Below are positions 10,998 to 18,377 of a DNA stretch of 47,857 nucleotides, piece by piece (within the stretch, counting starts at the first letter, position 1; each line of letters opens with the position of its first letter). Source of the DNA: Deltaproteobacteria bacterium (lineage in GTDB: Bacteria; Myxococcota_A; Polyangia; Polyangiales; JADJMO01); NCBI GenBank assembly GCA_025363655.1, contig JANYDK010000046.1:1-47857 (forward strand), read 5' to 3'. The position numbers were made by a program, and so were the translations under genes. Below the pieces are notes generated by a model. It did no database searches, was not told the DNA's origin, and saw nothing but the letters and a program-made list of their open reading frames with translations.

Positions 10998-11909
10998 TCA
11001 GCCGCGCTCGATGAGCCAGCACATGAGCGCCTTCTGCACGTGCAGACGGTTCTCTGCCTGATCCCACACTCGTGAGCGCGGGCCTTCGATCGTCGCGTCG
11101 TCGATCTCTTCGCCACGATGCGCCGGCAAACAATGGAGCACGATCGCGTCGGCCTTCGAGCCTTCGAGGAGGGAGCTGGTGAGCGTGTAGCCGTCGAAGG
11201 CGAGGAGGCGCTTCTGCGCTTCGTCCTCCTGACCCATGCTCGTCCACACGTCGGTGTTGACGACGTCGGCGCCGGCGATGGCGACGCGCGGATCGCCGGT
11301 GACGCTGACGTGCGCTCCGGCGGCGGCGAGCTCGGCGACAGGTGGGCGAAACTCGGTCGGCGCGGCGATGGCGAGGTGGAAGTCGAAGAGCGAAGCCGCT
11401 TCGAGCCAGGAGCGCGCCATGTTGCTCGAGCCGTCACCGACCCAGGCCACGCGCATGCCGGCGATCGATCGACCGAGCGCCTCCTCGACGGTGAAGACGT
11501 CGCACAGCACCTGCACCGGATGACCGTCGTCGGTGAGGGCGTTGATCACCGGCACCGTCGCCGCGTGCGCCATCTCGAGGAGCTTCTTGGTGCCGAACGT
11601 ACGGTAGGCGATGGCGTCGCAATATCGAGAGAGCACGCGCGCGGTGTCTTTGATCGGCTCGCCGCGTCCGAGCTGGCTTCCCTCGATGCCGAGGATGACC
11701 GACTGCGCGCCGAGCTGACCGATGCCGACCTCGAACGAGACGCGCGTGCGGGTGCTCGCCTTCTCGAAGACGACGGCGACGGCGCGACCGCGCAAGCGAT
11801 CGACGTGGCTCCCCTTGGGCGCAGCTTTGAGCGCGCGCGCGAGCGTCAGCACCTCGCGGGCCTCGGCCAGCGAGAGATCGGAAATCTTCAGAAAATCACG
11901 CTTGTTCAT
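10998..11909 (-). CDS. argF: Ornithine carbamoyltransferase
   Basis: ArgF condenses ornithine and carbamoyl phosphate to citrulline, the sixth step of arginine synthesis, in the cytoplasm. The 303-residue protein has the carbamoyl-phosphate loop STRTR (52-56), RTF, DDGHPVQVL (family HPxQ), WVGDGSSNMARSW and VNTDVWTSMGQE, and the ornithine-site motif HCLPAHRGEE. Length matches anabolic OTCases. It is the last gene of the minus-strand arginine cluster, 34 bp behind argH, with no clear Shine-Dalgarno. It converges on the lipoprotein gene. Confidence 0.97.
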   Translation of the reverse strand: MNKRDFLKISDLSLAEAREVLTLARALKAAPKGSHVDRLRGRAVAVVFEKASTRTRVSFEVGIGQLGAQSVILGIEGSQLGRGEPIKDTARVLSRYCDAIAYRTFGTKKLLEMAHAATVPVINALTDDGHPVQVLCDVFTVEEALGRSIAGMRVAWVGDGSSNMARSWLEAASLFDFHLAIAAPTEFRPPVAELAAAGAHVSVTGDPRVAIAGADVVNTDVWTSMGQEDEAQKRLLAFDGYTLTSSLLEGSKADAIVLHCLPAHRGEEIDDATIEGPRSRVWDQAENRLHVQKALMCWLIERG

Positions 11910-11943: not shown

Positions 11944-13401
11944 TCAAGGCTCGAGCGGCTCGGAGGCGATCGTCTGCGCGAGCGAGCTCAGCGTCGGGGC
12001 TGCACTCGCTTGGCCCGCGAGGACCTCGGCGTGTGCGCGGAGCTGTTCGAGCTGGGCCGCCACCGACTTCGGCCCGGTGCCGCCGAGGCTCTCCTTCGCT
12101 TGCATGGCGAGCATCGGATCGAGCACCGCGAGCGCCGCCGCGTCGATCGCGGGATGGATCTTCGCCGCCACCTCGGGCTCGATCGACGAGAGCCAGACGC
12201 CATCGTCGGTCGCCTTGCGGACGAGCGCGCCGACCGCTTGGTAAGCCTCGCGAAAGGCCACGCCCTTGCGCACGAGCGCTTCTGCGAGATCGGTGGCCTG
12301 GGTCGAGCCGTCGACGAGCGCGCCGGCGCCGCGCGCACCATCGAAGTGCACGTGCGGCATCGCCTGACGAACGGCGGAGAGCGCGCCGCGCGCGAACGGA
12401 CCGCTCTCGAGGAGCGCGCGTCGATCTTCCTGGAGGTCGCGGTTGTAGCCGGTGGGCAACCCCTTCACGAGCACCATCAACGCGGAAACGTTGCCGATGG
12501 CGCGACCCGACTGCCCGCGGACGAGCTCGAAGACGTCCGGGTTCTTCTTCTGCGGCATCATGCTCGAGCCGGCGGCGATGCTGCCATCGAGCGCGACGAG
12601 CCCGAACTCGGCGCTCGCGTAGTCGATGACGTCGGTCGCGAGCCGCGAGAGCGCGAGCAGGGTGCGCGCCACCGCCCAGGTGAAATCGAGGGCAAAATCA
12701 CGATCACCGACGGTGTCGAGCGCGTTCTGGGTGACGCCCGGGAAGCCGAGGAGGCGCGCGGTGAGCAGGCGATCGATCGGCAGCGAGGTGCCCGAGCAAG
12801 CGCCGGAGCCGAGCGGCAGCTCCTGACAGCGCGAGAGCGCGAAGGCCATCACGTCTCCCGCGCGCGAGAGCTGCGAAGCCCACGCCGCCACGAGAAAGGC
12901 AGCGGAAATCGGCTGGGCGCGTTGTCGATGGGTGTAGGCGGGAATGAGCTTGTCGCCTTCACGACTGGCGCGCTCGGCGAGCTCTTTCACCAATGCAGCG
13001 ATCTCGGCGAGCGTCGCCGAAGCCTGTCCGCGAACGTGGAGCCGCAAATCGGTGGCGACCTGATCGTTGCGTGAGCGCGCGGTGTGCAATCGTCCGGCGA
13101 CGGCGGGGCTGAGGCGCTTGTGGAGGAGCGCTTCGACGGCCATGTGGATGTCCTCTTCGCCGTCGGGAATGGCCAGTTTTCCCGTGTCGACCTCGAGGAG
13201 CATGCGCATCAGCGCCTCGCGAATGGCGCGCGCGTCGGTGACGGTCACGAGCTTCGTCCGCGCCAGCATCGTCACGTGCGCCGCGCTGCCGAGCAGATCT
13301 TCGCGCACCATTTGCCGATCGAGCGAGAGGGAGGACGACCAGGCGAGGAGCTCGGGGAGCATTCCGCCGGCTCCGGTGGCGTTGGTGCGCGCGATGCTCA
13401 T
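11944..13401 (-). CDS. argH: Argininosuccinate lyase
   Basis: ArgH splits argininosuccinate into arginine and fumarate, the last step of the pathway. 485 residues with the fumarase/aspartase superfamily signature GSSMMPQKKNPD (278-289), the TARSRNDQVATD segment and AYTHRQRAQP with H158. The usual N-terminal LWGGRF motif is missing: the protein begins almost at the LDRQMVREDLLGSAAH helix, so the extreme N-terminus is divergent or shortened. It sits 31 bp behind the receiver gene and 34 bp before argF. argG, which makes its substrate, is not in the window. Confidence 0.95.
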   Translation of the reverse strand: MSIARTNATGAGGMLPELLAWSSSLSLDRQMVREDLLGSAAHVTMLARTKLVTVTDARAIREALMRMLLEVDTGKLAIPDGEEDIHMAVEALLHKRLSPAVAGRLHTARSRNDQVATDLRLHVRGQASATLAEIAALVKELAERASREGDKLIPAYTHRQRAQPISAAFLVAAWASQLSRAGDVMAFALSRCQELPLGSGACSGTSLPIDRLLTARLLGFPGVTQNALDTVGDRDFALDFTWAVARTLLALSRLATDVIDYASAEFGLVALDGSIAAGSSMMPQKKNPDVFELVRGQSGRAIGNVSALMVLVKGLPTGYNRDLQEDRRALLESGPFARGALSAVRQAMPHVHFDGARGAGALVDGSTQATDLAEALVRKGVAFREAYQAVGALVRKATDDGVWLSSIEPEVAAKIHPAIDAAALAVLDPMLAMQAKESLGGTGPKSVAAQLEQLRAHAEVLAGQASAAPTLSSLAQTIASEPLEP

Positions 13402-13432: not shown

Positions 13433-13897
13433 TCAATGCAGCGCGGCGTCGACCGCTGCAGTGAGCAAATCGAGCGAGAACGGTTTGGCGAGCACCGCTG
13501 CCTTCAGCTCTTCGGCGCGACGTCGCAGCTCTGCGCTGGGAAACGTGGTCAAAAGAAGGGTCGCGCCCTTCCAACCGGCAGCGCGCAACCGACGAACCGC
13601 CTCCAGCCCGGCGAGCCCGCGCAGCTCGTGATCGAGAATGAGGAGATGGAAGCTCTCCATCGCCGAGCCACGACCGAGCACCTCGATGGCGTGGGCGAGA
13701 TCGTCGATCGCCTGCGGATGATGCACGTCGTATCCCGCTTCGACGAGGCGCGTGGAGACGAGACCGCGCACGACCCAGTCGTCCTCGACGAGGAGCACCC
13801 GAATGCTCCCGCTCGGTCGCGCGTCGGGCAGCGTGTCTTCGAAGTCGTCGAATTTGGGGAGCGGGTAGGTGTCGACGGCAGCGGCAGCGCGAGGCAT
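13433..13897 (-). CDS. Single-domain response regulator (receiver only)
   Basis: 154 residues: a roughly 30-residue Ala/Asp/Pro-rich lead, then one complete receiver domain. The acidic pocket is E38-D39-D40 (LLVEDD), the phospho-acceptor D89 (LLILDHEL), the switch Thr T117 (LLLTTF) and the conserved K138 (LAKPF). All catalytic residues are present, so it should be phosphorylatable, with no DNA-binding output domain. The ATG has a good AGGAG Shine-Dalgarno. It lies between a flippase-like gene and argH, an odd place for a signalling protein; the cognate kinase is unknown. Confidence 0.88.
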   Translation of the reverse strand: MPRAAAAVDTYPLPKFDDFEDTLPDARPSGSIRVLLVEDDWVVRGLVSTRLVEAGYDVHHPQAIDDLAHAIEVLGRGSAMESFHLLILDHELRGLAGLEAVRRLRAAGWKGATLLLTTFPSAELRRRAEELKAAVLAKPFSLDLLTAAVDAALH

Positions 13898-13930: not shown

Positions 13931-15022
13931 TCAGGGAGGCGTGGAAGGTCTCGTCGGGACCGGTACCCAACTGCGGGAGGGCGCGAGCACTCGTCGCACC
14001 AGCGCGAACGAGGCGAATCCAGCGCCGATCCAGACGAGCTCCTTACCGCGCTTGAGGACGATGAAGGCGGCGCCGATCGTCGAAGGGTCGGCGACGCCGA
14101 AGGCTGCGAGCATCCCGACGTAGGCGGCATCGGTCACGCCGAGCCCGCTCGGGAGCATGAAGGCGAACGAGCGCAGGAGCGAGACGCTGGCATCGATGGC
14201 GGCGACCTCGAGAAAACCGATGGGAACGCCGAGCAGCCGGAGAATGACGAACGACTCGAGCGCCTCGCAAAACCAGCTCGCCAAGTAGGGAGCGGCGGCG
14301 CGCACGAGCGACGATGGTGGGCTGCGAAAGAGGCTGACGAGGTGACGATCGGTCGAGAGAAAAGCCTCGCGCCGCGCCTCGAGGTACGTACGAAGCCGAG
14401 GGTTTCGCAGCGTGGAGAGCTTGCGAAACGCCCTCTCTGCGAGCTCGGCGCGGGTGACGACGAGGACGAACGCCGCAGCGACCACGGCGAGGAGCACCGA
14501 CGCGAAGGCGAAGAGCCGCGGCAACGCGCCGCCGACGCCGAGACGATGACCGGCGATGGCGAGGCTCGGGGAGGCGCCGAGGACGACGATCGAGAGGTAG
14601 ACCGCCTGCGTCGACATCAACATCGCTTTGCAGCCCGCGAGCGTCGCCGTCGTCTTCGCCTTCGGCACGCCGGCGACGTGCTCGAGGAGCAGCGGCTTCA
14701 CCCCTTCGACCGCGAGCGCTCCGCCTGGCAGACAAGCAGCGACGCCCGTGCTGCACGAGCGCACCGCGAGGAGATGGAGAAATCGGACAGGCGCACGGAG
14801 GAGGGTGAAGAGCCGCTGCCATCCGAGCGTCTCGCAGACGAGGAGCGCGGCGTACGGCACGAGGACGAGGAACGCGCGCCCACCGAGCGTGTGAAGGTGA
14901 GACGCGACCCCGTGCAGGTTGGCGGCGAGCAGCGTTCGAACGAGCAAGAGCGACGCGAGCGCGACGAGCGCGACACGTATCATCCGCTTCACCCGCGTGG
15001 AGCTCGTCGACGAATGCGGCAC
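13931..15022 (-). CDS. Flippase-like / LPG-synthase-TM family membrane protein
   Basis: 363 residues, mostly hydrophobic with about eight membrane helices, and the typical end motif of the YbhN/MprF-TM (UPF0104) group: SFAFMLPSGLGVTDAAYVGML, where relatives have PGGLG-x-R/T-E/D-A. Relatives move or modify lipid-linked molecules across the inner membrane; the substrate here is unknown. The start is either GTG at 15022 or ATG at 14983; neither has a strong ribosome site. The gene is inserted between argJB and the receiver gene in the arginine cluster. A 146-bp gap upstream means it may have its own promoter. Confidence 0.75.
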   Translation of the reverse strand: MPHSSTSSTRVKRMIRVALVALASLLLVRTLLAANLHGVASHLHTLGGRAFLVLVPYAALLVCETLGWQRLFTLLRAPVRFLHLLAVRSCSTGVAACLPGGALAVEGVKPLLLEHVAGVPKAKTTATLAGCKAMLMSTQAVYLSIVVLGASPSLAIAGHRLGVGGALPRLFAFASVLLAVVAAAFVLVVTRAELAERAFRKLSTLRNPRLRTYLEARREAFLSTDRHLVSLFRSPPSSLVRAAAPYLASWFCEALESFVILRLLGVPIGFLEVAAIDASVSLLRSFAFMLPSGLGVTDAAYVGMLAAFGVADPSTIGAAFIVLKRGKELVWIGAGFASFALVRRVLAPSRSWVPVPTRPSTPP

Positions 15023-15168: not shown

Positions 15169-17304
15169 TCAGCAGGTCACGAGCGTGCCGACGCCCTTGT
15201 CGGTGAAGAGCTCGGCCACCAGCCCGTGCGGCGTGCGCCCGTCGACGATGTGCACGCTCTTCACTCCACCTTCGATGGCGCGAAGGACGCTCTTCGCCTT
15301 CGCCACCATCCCGCCACGGACGACGCCGCTGGCGATCTTCGATCGCAGCTCGGCGGCGCTGATCTCACTGATCAGCTCGTCGTTCTCGAGGATGCCGGCG
15401 ACGTCGGTGAGGTAGATGAGCTTCTCGGCCTTGAGCGCCACGGCGACCTCGGCCGCGGCGGCGTCGGCGTTGATGTTGTAACCCTCGCCATCGTCGCCGA
15501 GCCCGACCGGCGAGATCACCGGCACGTACGACTTCTGCAAAAGCAGATCGAGGAGCTCGACGTTGACGTGGGTGACCTCGCCGACGCGACCGAGATCGCG
15601 CCCGTCGTCGGCGAGGAGCTTCTTCGCGCGAAGGAGCCCGCCGTCTTTGCCGGAGACGCCGACCGCGTGCGCGTGCCCATGCTGCCCCTTCGCCATCGCC
15701 ATCGTGTCGGCGTTGAGCAAGGAGACGAGCTCGGTGTTGATCTTCCCGGTGAGCACCATCTCGACCACCTTGAGGTCGGCCATGTCGGTGACGCGGATGC
15801 CGTCGATGAACTCGCTGCGCTTCTCGGGGGCGAGTTTTTCCAGGGTCCTGGTGATCTCGGGGCCGCCACCGTGGACGACGATGGGGAGGAGTCCGGCTGA
15901 GCGCAGGAGGTTGATGTCGCCGGCGAAGCTCGCCTTCAGCGAATCTTTCACCATCGCTGCGCCGCCGTATTTCACGACCGCGCGCTTGCCGGTGAACTTC
16001 GAGATGTAGGAGAGCGCCTCGACGAGGAGAGCGCGCTTGAAGCCGGGCGTGTAGTTGGTGAGACGATCGTCCTTGGAGACGACGCCCTCCGGGGAGCTGC
16101 TGGTGAGCGAGGTGTAGTCGGCGTTGATCTTCACGTAGTCGTACGAAAGATCGCAGCCCCAAGCGGTGGCGTGCGCGTCACCCTCGGCGAGCAGGACCTC
16201 GATTTCGATCTGCGGCAGGCGCATCTTCGCCCGGAGCGACATCGGATCGTGGGACGTCGGCGCGCCGTTCTCGAAGACGGTGACCTCTTGGATGCGCACC
16301 GTCGCGGCCATCGGATCGACCGGGAGACGCTGCGAGCCGGCGCGCGCACCGATGGTCGACAGCACCCGGCCCCAGTTCGGATCGGCGCCAAAAATGGCGG
16401 CTTTCACCAAGCTGGAGCCTGCCACCGACTTCGCGAGATCGCGCGCGATCGCCTCGTCGGGCGCGCCGCTGACCTTGACCTCGACGAGCTTGGTCGCGCC
16501 CTCGCCATCTTCGGCGATGGCCCGCGCGAGCTCGACGCAGATTTCGGCGATCGCCGTTTCGAACTCGGCGAAGCCGGGCACGTCTTCGTCGAGGGAGGCG
16601 TTTCCAGCCAGGCCGTTGGCGAGGGCGAAGACGGCGTCGTTGGTGCTCATGTCGCCGTCGACGACCAAGTTGTCGAAGCTTCGTCCGGTCGCGCGCAAGA
16701 GCACCGCTTGCAGCGCCGACGGACTGATCGCCGCGTCGGTGACGATGAACGCGAGCATGGTCGCGAGCTGCGGGGCGATCATTCCCGAGCCCTTGGCGCA
16801 CGCTGCGACGGTGATTTCCACCGGGCCGTTCGCGCCGTCGAAGGAGATCACCCGACCCGACAGCTTCACGCGCGTGTCGGTGGTCATGATCGCCTCGGCC
16901 GCCGCTTCGATGGTCGGGCCGAGCGCATCACGGAGCCGCGGCGCCGCGTCGGTGAGCTTCTTCAGCGGCAGCCGCACGCCGATGACGCCTGTCGACGCCG
17001 AGAGCACCGCGGAGGGCGGGCAACCGATCGCCTGACCGAACGCCGCGTGCACCTCGCGCACGTCGGCCTCGCCGTCGGGACCGGTGAGCGCATTGGCGTT
17101 GCCGCTGTTGACGACGATGGCGCGGATGCCCCGTCCAGGGAGACGAGCCTCGGCGTCACGCGCCGGCGCGGCCTTCGCCTTGTTGATGGTGAAGCAACCC
17201 GCGGCCACGCACGGAACCTCGCTGACGATCAGCGCCATGTCCTTGCGCGTCGCCTTGATGCCGACGTTGAGCCCAGCGAACGAAAAGCCACGCGGCGTCT
17301 TCAT
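15169..17304 (-). CDS. argJ-argB: Fused glutamate N-acetyltransferase (ArgJ) and N-acetylglutamate kinase (ArgB)
   Basis: One uninterrupted 711-residue frame. Residues 1-400 are ArgJ: VVNSGNANA, ASTGVIG, the self-cleavage region KGSGMIAPQLATML with nucleophile T182, and the C-terminal INADYTSLT. ArgJ recycles acetyl groups from N-acetylornithine to glutamate. A 15-residue Ser/Asp-rich linker leads to ArgB (about 416-711): helix RALLVEALSYISKF, KYGGAAM with K445, VVHGGGPE, DGIRVTD, NADAAAAEVA and the tail DGRTPHGLVAE / TDKGVGTLV. The N-terminal helix and tail match arginine-sensitive kinases, so the kinase half is probably the feedback point. Self-cleavage would leave the kinase attached to the ArgJ beta chain. 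The ATG overlaps the argC stop (ATGA). Confidence 0.95.
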   Translation of the reverse strand: MKTPRGFSFAGLNVGIKATRKDMALIVSEVPCVAAGCFTINKAKAAPARDAEARLPGRGIRAIVVNSGNANALTGPDGEADVREVHAAFGQAIGCPPSAVLSASTGVIGVRLPLKKLTDAAPRLRDALGPTIEAAAEAIMTTDTRVKLSGRVISFDGANGPVEITVAACAKGSGMIAPQLATMLAFIVTDAAISPSALQAVLLRATGRSFDNLVVDGDMSTNDAVFALANGLAGNASLDEDVPGFAEFETAIAEICVELARAIAEDGEGATKLVEVKVSGAPDEAIARDLAKSVAGSSLVKAAIFGADPNWGRVLSTIGARAGSQRLPVDPMAATVRIQEVTVFENGAPTSHDPMSLRAKMRLPQIEIEVLLAEGDAHATAWGCDLSYDYVKINADYTSLTSSSPEGVVSKDDRLTNYTPGFKRALLVEALSYISKFTGKRAVVKYGGAAMVKDSLKASFAGDINLLRSAGLLPIVVHGGGPEITRTLEKLAPEKRSEFIDGIRVTDMADLKVVEMVLTGKINTELVSLLNADTMAMAKGQHGHAHAVGVSGKDGGLLRAKKLLADDGRDLGRVGEVTHVNVELLDLLLQKSYVPVISPVGLGDDGEGYNINADAAAAEVAVALKAEKLIYLTDVAGILENDELISEISAAELRSKIASGVVRGGMVAKAKSVLRAIEGGVKSVHIVDGRTPHGLVAELFTDKGVGTLVTC

Positions 17305-18377
17305 GGAGTGCTCCGAAAGAGGCGATCGAGCCCAGTGGATTCGGCGAAGCCGAGGAGACGATTGAGGTTCTGCACGGCCTGCCCGGCCGCACCTTTGATC
17401 AAGTTGTCGAGCGCCGCGACCACCACCACCACCGGCGCGTCGTTCGACGAACTGTCATGAATGTCAGGAATGGCAAGATCGGGCGCGAGCACGCCGACCC
17501 GACAGACGTTGGTGCCGACGACGCTCGCCAGCCTCACCTCGTGCGGGTGCACGACCTCGACGAAGGGCGCATCGCGATAGGCCTCCTCGAGACAGGTACG
17601 CAGCGCCGCGGTCGTCACGCCGACACGCGGGCGCACGTAGGAAGTGCAGAGGAGCCCGCGACGAACGGGGATGAGGTGCGCGGCGAACGTGAGCGACACC
17701 CCGCGACCCGCCACGTCGCCGATCGCCTGCGACATCTCGGGCGTGTGTTGGTGGGCGTGGAGCTTGTACGCGCGGACGTCGTCGTCGACTTCGACGAAGG
17801 AGTACTCGTCCTTCGCCTGCCGCCCGGCGCCGGTAACGCCCGATTTTCCGTCGACGATCAGCGGCGCGTCGAGATCGAGGAGCCCCGCGCGGGCGAGGGG
17901 CGCGAGCGAGAGAATCGCCGCCGTCGCATAGCAACCGGGATTGGCGACGAGCGCGTCGACCTTCCCGGGGAAGAGCTCGGGCAACCCATAATGCGACTTC
18001 GAAAGCAGCTCCGGCGCCGCGTGATCGAAGCGGTACCAGCGCGGATAGGCCTGCGCATCACGCAAACGGAAGGCGCCGGAGAGATCGACCACCTTCACCC
18101 CTTGCGCGAGAAAACGAGGCGCGAGCGTGATCGAGACCTCCGCCGAGGTGGCGAGGAGCACCGCATCGAGACCCGCCGCGAACGCTTCTTCGTGCGTGAC
18201 GAACGTCAGCGTGGTGTCGGCCCCTGCCCGCGCCCGCACGCTCTCGCCCGCCCAACGGTCCGAGGTCGCGCAGGCGAGCTCGCACGACGGATGCGCCGCC
18301 AGAATGCGCGCGGCGAGGATCCCCGAGTACCCGGAGGCGCCGACAATCCCGATGCGAGGGCCGATGCGAGGGCTCAC
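17301..18377 (-). CDS. argC: N-acetyl-gamma-glutamyl-phosphate reductase
   Basis: ArgC reduces N-acetylglutamyl phosphate to the semialdehyde with NADPH. 358 residues: Rossmann GASGYSG (13-19), catalytic C149 in NPGCYATA, DGKSGVTGAGR, HQHTPEM and C-terminal ALDNLIKGAAGQAVQN. Start is GTG at 18377, exactly six bases behind a TATAGC hexamer, so the message may be leaderless. Two tandem repeats lie in the gene: a 12-bp duplication giving PRIGPRIG at the N-terminus and a degenerate 9-bp array giving IPDIHDSSS in a loop. First gene of the minus-strand arginine cluster; overlaps argJB by four bases. Confidence 0.96.
   Translation of the reverse strand: MSPRIGPRIGIVGASGYSGILAARILAAHPSCELACATSDRWAGESVRARAGADTTLTFVTHEEAFAAGLDAVLLATSAEVSITLAPRFLAQGVKVVDLSGAFRLRDAQAYPRWYRFDHAAPELLSKSHYGLPELFPGKVDALVANPGCYATAAILSLAPLARAGLLDLDAPLIVDGKSGVTGAGRQAKDEYSFVEVDDDVRAYKLHAHQHTPEMSQAIGDVAGRGVSLTFAAHLIPVRRGLLCTSYVRPRVGVTTAALRTCLEEAYRDAPFVEVVHPHEVRLASVVGTNVCRVGVLAPDLAIPDIHDSSSNDAPVVVVVAALDNLIKGAAGQAVQNLNRLLGFAESTGLDRLFRSTP
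17452..17478. repeat. Three degenerate tandem copies of a 9-bp unit (ATGTCAGGA-like)
   Basis: CTGTCATGA, ATGTCAGGA, ATGGCAAGA, followed by TCG; in frame inside argC (loop residues around IPDIHDSSS). The central unit is identical to that of the pair at 2436-2453. Confidence 0.8.
18350..18373. repeat. Two perfect tandem copies of a 12-bp unit at the 5' end of argC
   Basis: CGATGCGAGGGC at 18350-18361 and 18362-18373. On the minus strand it encodes the doubled PRIG at the ArgC N-terminus, just before the Rossmann glycine loop. Confidence 0.9.

Follow-up and report, generated by a model that had tools for sequence, protein, structure and literature searches.

The stretch of DNA analysed here (the window; 47,857 nucleotides from a Myxococcota genome) carries arginine biosynthesis genes on its minus strand, and argJ and argB are joined there in a single open reading frame, argJB. 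This frame runs from position 17304 down to 15169 over 711 codons with zero internal stops, and the plus-strand frame over the same positions is interrupted by a stop. The arginine cluster also includes two unrelated minus-strand genes, located between argJB and argH. The features to which we refer below are the following:

10998..11909, minus strand: argF, same orientation, downstream of argJB
11944..13401, minus strand: argH, same orientation, downstream of argJB
13433-13897, minus strand: single-domain response regulator, between argJB and argH
13931-15022, minus strand: HpnL/flippase-like membrane protein, between argJB and argH
15169..17304, minus strand: argJB fusion frame, ATG start, 711 amino acids, TGA stop codon at 15169-15171
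17301..18377, minus strand: argC, overlapping the start of argJB by 4 nt
16105..17304, minus strand: ArgJ domain, residues 1-400 (Pfam PF01960, NCBIfam PRK05388)
16759..16764, minus strand: A181-T182, predicted self-cleavage site and nucleophile (KGSGMIAPQLA/T), from alignment to 1vra
16051..16101, minus strand: linker, residues 402-418 (17 residues), conserved as (D/E)G-x-V-x-(K/R)DDRL-x-NY(S/T)P
15991..16050, minus strand: N-helix of the kinase, residues 419-438 (L427, L431, Y433), which in arginine-sensitive NAG kinases contributes to the arginine site (PMC3329491, PMC4490483)
15172..15987, minus strand: NAG kinase domain, residues 440-711 (Pfam, NCBIfam and residue table)
15421..15423, minus strand: K628, by residue alignment the counterpart of the beta-sheet lysine that is key to the arginine site
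15184..15213, minus strand: E698-LFTDKGVGT-707, a sequence match to the arginine-binding motif E-(L/I)-(F/M)-(T/S)-x-x-G-x-G-T of PMC4490483

The first-pass annotation had read this gene as a fusion of 711 residues with both halves complete, and the single minus-strand frame, the 17-residue linker and the family matches bear this out. Pfam assigns residues 9-399 to ArgJ with 446 bits (cut-off 32), and NCBIfam gives a full-length ArgJ match to PRK05388 with 443 bits (curated cut-off 351). The cleavage threonine T182 is in place as annotated, since chain B of the solved ArgJ structure 1vra aligns starting at residue 182 of the window protein, and the threonine is present in every fusion that covers the position, except for G306, which has a serine. 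The conditional claim made on this basis also holds: if ArgJ cleaves itself, the beta chain has the kinase as its C-terminal domain. As for this kinase half, Pfam places AA_kinase at residues 440-688 with 143 bits, and the argB equivalog TIGR00761 is matched with 224 bits (cut-off 151.3). All ten catalytic positions are occupied as expected (K445, G447, G448, G479, G480, R504, N610, N612, D614 and K669), and by alignment K445, D614 and K669 correspond to K8, D162 and K217 of E. coli. Because every tested catalytic residue is present, the window kinase is probably active. Three elements make up the arginine site in NAG kinase and NAG synthase: the last part of the N-terminal helix, a central-sheet lysine and the E-(L/I)-(F/M)-(T/S)-x-x-G-x-G-T motif (PMC4490483). 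The N-terminal helix is found in arginine-sensitive NAG kinases and not in arginine-insensitive ones (PMC4490483, PMC3329491), and it links NAG kinase dimers into hexamers (PMC3329491). Judged by its sequence, the window kinase carries the helix, the sheet lysine and the motif, and it probably still phosphorylates NAG and is inhibited by arginine. The linker part 406-418 (13 residues) has the same length in most relatives. An AlphaFold monomer model of the whole window fusion, built from an alignment of 7 rows, reached a mean pLDDT of 70 and a pTM of 0.52; both domains are visible, their relative placement is unusable, and the linker region 386-423 is poorly predicted (pLDDT below 50).

To find related fusions, the window protein was searched against GTDB genomes, 38 relatives and 284 Myxococcota genomes, followed by checks of the reading frames. 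ArgJ with an ArgB-derived tail in one open frame was found in 38 distinct genomes, all Myxococcota. Archangium violaceum (L032) and Anaeromyxobacter soli (L035) are among them, as are many metagenome-assembled genomes. The first-pass annotation had named a stop or frameshift at the junction, or an existing description of the fusion as common, as what would undo its reading. The former was not seen, the identical junction being in frame in 37 other genomes, and a sequencing artefact was rejected on the same ground. The fusion is clade-wide and not unique to the window genome. In the Myxococcota genome G150, argJ and argB abut with a stop codon between them. Among 199 genomes of the phylum chosen via the Lachnospiraceae genome L047 no fusion was found; matches spanning both argJ and argB occurred in 34 of them, all 34 with stop codons. 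The remaining non-Myxococcota loci from the GTDB search likewise contained no fusion, showing stops or separate frames, even though argJ and argB often lie next to each other in the genomes checked outside Myxococcota. The open-access literature yielded no account of an ArgJ-ArgB fusion, and although subscription journals or database annotation may mention one, argJB is apparently undescribed, in agreement with the first-pass annotation, which did not count it among the arginine fusions that it could name.

When placed on a tree, 31 fused ArgJs all fell into one clade (SH-aLRT 100), which also contains one ArgJ without a tail (G197). Downstream of this tail-less gene (L135, 1492-2670) comes a GNAT-like open reading frame, and the three forward frames read there hold no trace of a sensor. 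A single clade (support 100) likewise unites the fused kinases; its one stand-alone member comes from G286. This arginine-type ArgB (L142) directly follows argC, there is no ArgJ match in the 1.5 kb flanks that were read, and it is probably the product of a secondary loss of the ArgJ part. The simplest reading is that the fusion arose once. In nearly all relatives for which the flank was read, argC is the upstream neighbour of the fusion. The window fusion is the sole ArgJ found in its assembly (completeness 96%); many fusion genomes contain a second, unfused ArgJ from other clades (L230-L235, L184, L186, L026-L030).

The two functions of the kinase half have fared differently among the 36 fusions in which the C-terminus was covered. 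The arginine-site positions Y433, K628, H685, E698-L-F-T, G704 and G706 are kept in 36 of 36, and K445, D614 and K669 together in 12 (the window and 11 others), catalytic residues having been lost in 24. All ten catalytic positions are intact in six fusions, one of which is the window, and on the ArgJ tree the catalytic state (intact versus lost) changes at least 8 times. For a less hand-picked test, 52 stand-alone NAG kinases with both the N-helix tyrosine and the motif glutamate were used to define 50 columns with at least 95% conservation; Y433 and E698 define this reference set and are thus conserved there by construction, which does not apply to the other columns. Of these columns, L427, L431, Y433, D463, G637, E698, T701, G704 and G706 are kept in all 24 catalytically broken fusions, and the catalytic columns K445, N612, K669, R504 and D614 are retained in 4%, 0%, 12%, 17% and 25% of them, respectively. 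The reverse pattern was observed in 15 other stand-alone NAG kinases without the tyrosine/glutamate pair, with catalytic columns at 100% and site columns mostly at 0-40% (G637 100%). A rank test of the five arginine-site columns in the 50-column set gave p = 0.0005, with kinship ignored. In ten pairs the tail and the ArgJ part had similarly low dN/dS, and the fused tail is under purifying selection. The many catalytic losses, and the deletions described below, are what one would see if the fused kinase were a redundant relic that drifts and whose leftover conservation is due to chance. We consider this very improbable, as all frames are open, the dN/dS of the tail is as low as that of ArgJ, and the arginine site is invariant across the clade.

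Two lineages have gone further. In f16 (five genomes), the kinase lacks the greater part of the stretch between the start of the N-lobe and the C-lobe, and in f25 (nine genomes) the tail measures about 150 residues and consists of the N-helix (QTLTPVLKKGVLREALRYL) and a C-lobe ending in HVLNGQVHAALIEELFTDRGIGSMV. In both cases an internal deletion has removed the catalytic middle and has left the N-helix and the C-lobe with the arginine site. A profile of the f25 tail matched the arginine-sensitive NAG kinase 2bty in the PDB (E 9e-13) in two pieces, covering chain residues 7-62 and 184-278. AlphaFold predicted a fairly confident fold for this tail (mean pLDDT 80), bearing in mind that the input alignment, which contained longer kinase relatives, biases the prediction toward a kinase fold. 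The best structural matches of the model were arginine-type NAG kinases (residues 19/28-168, helix included, Z 15-17), with lower scores for LysZ and other helix-less kinases (Z 14 and less), and the top Foldseek match was the arginine complex 2bty. The f25 tails (L202 tail 1508-2011 and relatives) score under the Pfam threshold, so public annotation would show a plain ArgJ.

These deletions bear on what the fusion is for. The first-pass annotation had envisaged a complex that would bring the acetyl recycler and the kinase together if ArgJ still cleaves, and one could suppose that the fusion exists so that ArgJ passes NAG to an active, arginine-inhibited kinase within one complex, given that ArgB acts on what ArgJ produces and that K445, D614 and K669 are intact in the window and 11 others. 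Such channelling is unlikely to be the purpose of the fusion, since catalysis is gone from 24 of the 36 complete fusions, across several lineages, and two lineages have had the core deleted, while the tail is still under purifying selection and the arginine site is kept in all complete fusions; a partner for channelling would not retain the inhibitor site alone. Another conceivable explanation is that N-helix and C-lobe are kept as a ring that organises ArgJ, with arginine being irrelevant. The helix that joins NAG kinase dimers into hexamers (PMC3329491) is indeed among the best-kept parts, but in the cited structures arginine is contacted by E698, K628 and the LFT-xxG-xG loop, and these same contacts are kept in every complete fusion, including f25, which lacks much of the kinase. 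A role as mere assembly scaffold is therefore quite unlikely.

The window genome contains a second argB (argB2) elsewhere:

G000:C82:9468-10196 (L112/L236; 5424-6275 in L236): argB2, beside its own argC
4387-5457 in L236 (G000:C82:4000-16000): argC2, overlapping argB2

Neighbours of this pair are genes for LuxC/LuxE-like acyl reductases and for a divergent M20 peptidase. In argB2 all catalytic residues are present, and the N-helix and the arginine motif are absent. The catalytic lysine, aspartate and lysine are found in every stand-alone ArgB of the fusion genomes, and among 32 fusion genomes whose ArgB sequences were checked, 26 have no stand-alone ArgB with an arginine site (the genomes are related, so the counts are not independent). 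An arginine-type stand-alone ArgB was found in the other 6 (G001, G002, G003, G032, G168 and G302/G090). The window copy is expected to combine ArgJ with an arginine-inhibited NAG kinase, and the stand-alone ArgB to be an uninhibited kinase. In unfused Myxococcota, ArgB exceeds 200 bits in 36 of 38 genomes, and the whole arginine site was kept in 30 of 30 best-scoring ArgBs that were read, again from related genomes, so that these counts are not independent either. A second ArgB, scoring about 190 bits, occurs in some of these unfused genomes; by score it falls in the same range as the site-less ArgBs, and the site-less paralogue is therefore probably not a response to the fusion. The site-less ArgBs constitute an old separate clade (support 100), on which ground a degraded copy of the fused kinase was rejected as their source. 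LysZ was rejected as well, because the LysZ score is well under its own cut-off and there is no LysW gene: the stand-alone ArgB at L236:5424-6275 reached 192 bits for argB (over the cut-off) and 141 bits for LysZ (under 223), and LysW was found in none of the 7 genomes searched, with a positive control. Of the stand-alone ArgBs scored, 4 of 5 passed the argB cut-off, the one from f25 being at or just below it. In f16 and f25 no other intact kinase of this family was found, so the site-less ArgB would have to be the NAG kinase there. The age of the site-less clade and the ArgBs of similar score in unfused genomes suggest a likely order of events, in which two kinases existed, the arginine-sensitive one was fused to ArgJ, and its catalysis was then free to decay.

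Taken together, the loss of catalysis in several lineages, an arginine site that persists in all C-terminally complete fusions and the second, site-less argB in this genome indicate that an arginine sensor for ArgJ is the better reading of the fused kinase. We propose that argJB probably encodes an ArgJ whose C-terminal domain senses arginine and descends from an arginine-sensitive NAG kinase, the binding of arginine and its effect on ArgJ being deduced from sequence. Kinase activity would then be a second, dispensable role of the fused domain, which accounts for the data better than a metabolon. We also lean towards the broader view that arginine feedback has physically moved from NAG kinase to ArgJ, that several lineages have pared the fused kinase down to a minimal arginine receptor, and that the arginine-regulated ArgJ resembles ArgA in design by convergence. 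ArgJ forms NAG out of acetylornithine and glutamate; bifunctional forms can also start from acetyl-CoA (PMC4490483). In the proposed mechanism, ArgJ, an ornithine acetyltransferase that is likely also a NAG synthase, would carry the sensor at its C-terminus, and self-cleavage at A181-T182 would leave the sensor on the beta chain. Arginine would clamp the N-helix and the C-lobe, and the movement would pass via the 13-residue linker that adjoins the C-terminus of ArgJ. A linker that transmits movement should be short and conserved, as this one is; ArgA is no longer inhibited when its AAK-NAT linker is made longer (PMC4490483). Arginine control of ArgJ would provide feedback at the first step of the pathway. 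An ArgA-type NAG synthase above the cut-off was found in 0 of 12 fusion genomes, a search whose scope does not extend to short or atypical synthases and other NAG synthase types, and ArgJ may therefore well be the entry enzyme in these genomes. Most relatives would have given up kinase activity to the separate site-less ArgB and kept the sensor alone, down to about 150 residues.

The arginine-sensor reading is supported by the retention of the site, the deletions in f16 and f25, the low dN/dS of the tail, the mirror-image ArgBs, the single clades, the kept argC-argJ(B) neighbourhood and the lack of an ArgA above the cut-off in the 12 fusion genomes searched. Several observations count against it. 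In the six fusion genomes with an arginine-type stand-alone ArgB the sensor has not been fully relocated, the ArgJ of G197 has lost its tail within the fused clade, the second ArgB of some unfused genomes makes the site-less paralogue an unlikely response to the fusion, the window model gives no usable contact between sensor and ArgJ, and, as the N-helix also builds the NAG kinase hexamer, its conservation could partly reflect assembly. ArgJ is usually seen as an unregulated recycler of the cyclic pathway. If the sensor proposal is true, ArgJ can be the controlled step, and a second, independent enzyme of the arginine pathway would have gained feedback control by capturing a NAG kinase domain. 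The fusion clade would moreover preserve the stages of this process, from an active-looking fused kinase via a pseudokinase to a minimal sensor, which makes the long-standing question of how an enzyme becomes a regulatory domain directly testable.

The closest parallel is classical ArgA (AAK and NAT domains, Neisseria gonorrhoeae type), for which an origin by fusion has been argued (PMC1382215). There, an amino-acid-kinase domain attached to a NAG-making enzyme acts as its arginine sensor, with the same E-(L/I)-(F/M)-(T/S)-xx-G-x-G-T motif and N-helix. However, the catalytic partner in argJB is ArgJ, which has an unrelated fold, and the putative sensor is C-terminal instead of N-terminal and can shrink to about 150 residues. 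A NAT (GNAT) domain at the C-terminus is absent in the window protein, and the NAGS models cover the kinase part alone, with 133-136 bits against cut-offs of 203-344. With the arginine-sensitive NAG kinases (ArgB of Thermotoga maritima and Pseudomonas aeruginosa) the window protein shares the tested catalytic residues, the N-helix and the arginine motif, but it is fused behind ArgJ, and most fused relatives have lost the catalytic residues. Like the ArgJ ornithine acetyltransferases/glutamate N-acetyltransferases, it has a full-length domain above the family cut-offs and the cleavage threonine, whereas known ArgJ proteins end at about residue 400 and the fusions continue for 150 to 310 further residues. 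The bifunctional NAGS/NAGK of Maricaulis and Xanthomonas and yeast Arg5,6 are likewise arginine-pathway fusions with NAG kinase, yet their partners are a NAT domain or ArgC, and here the partner is ArgJ.
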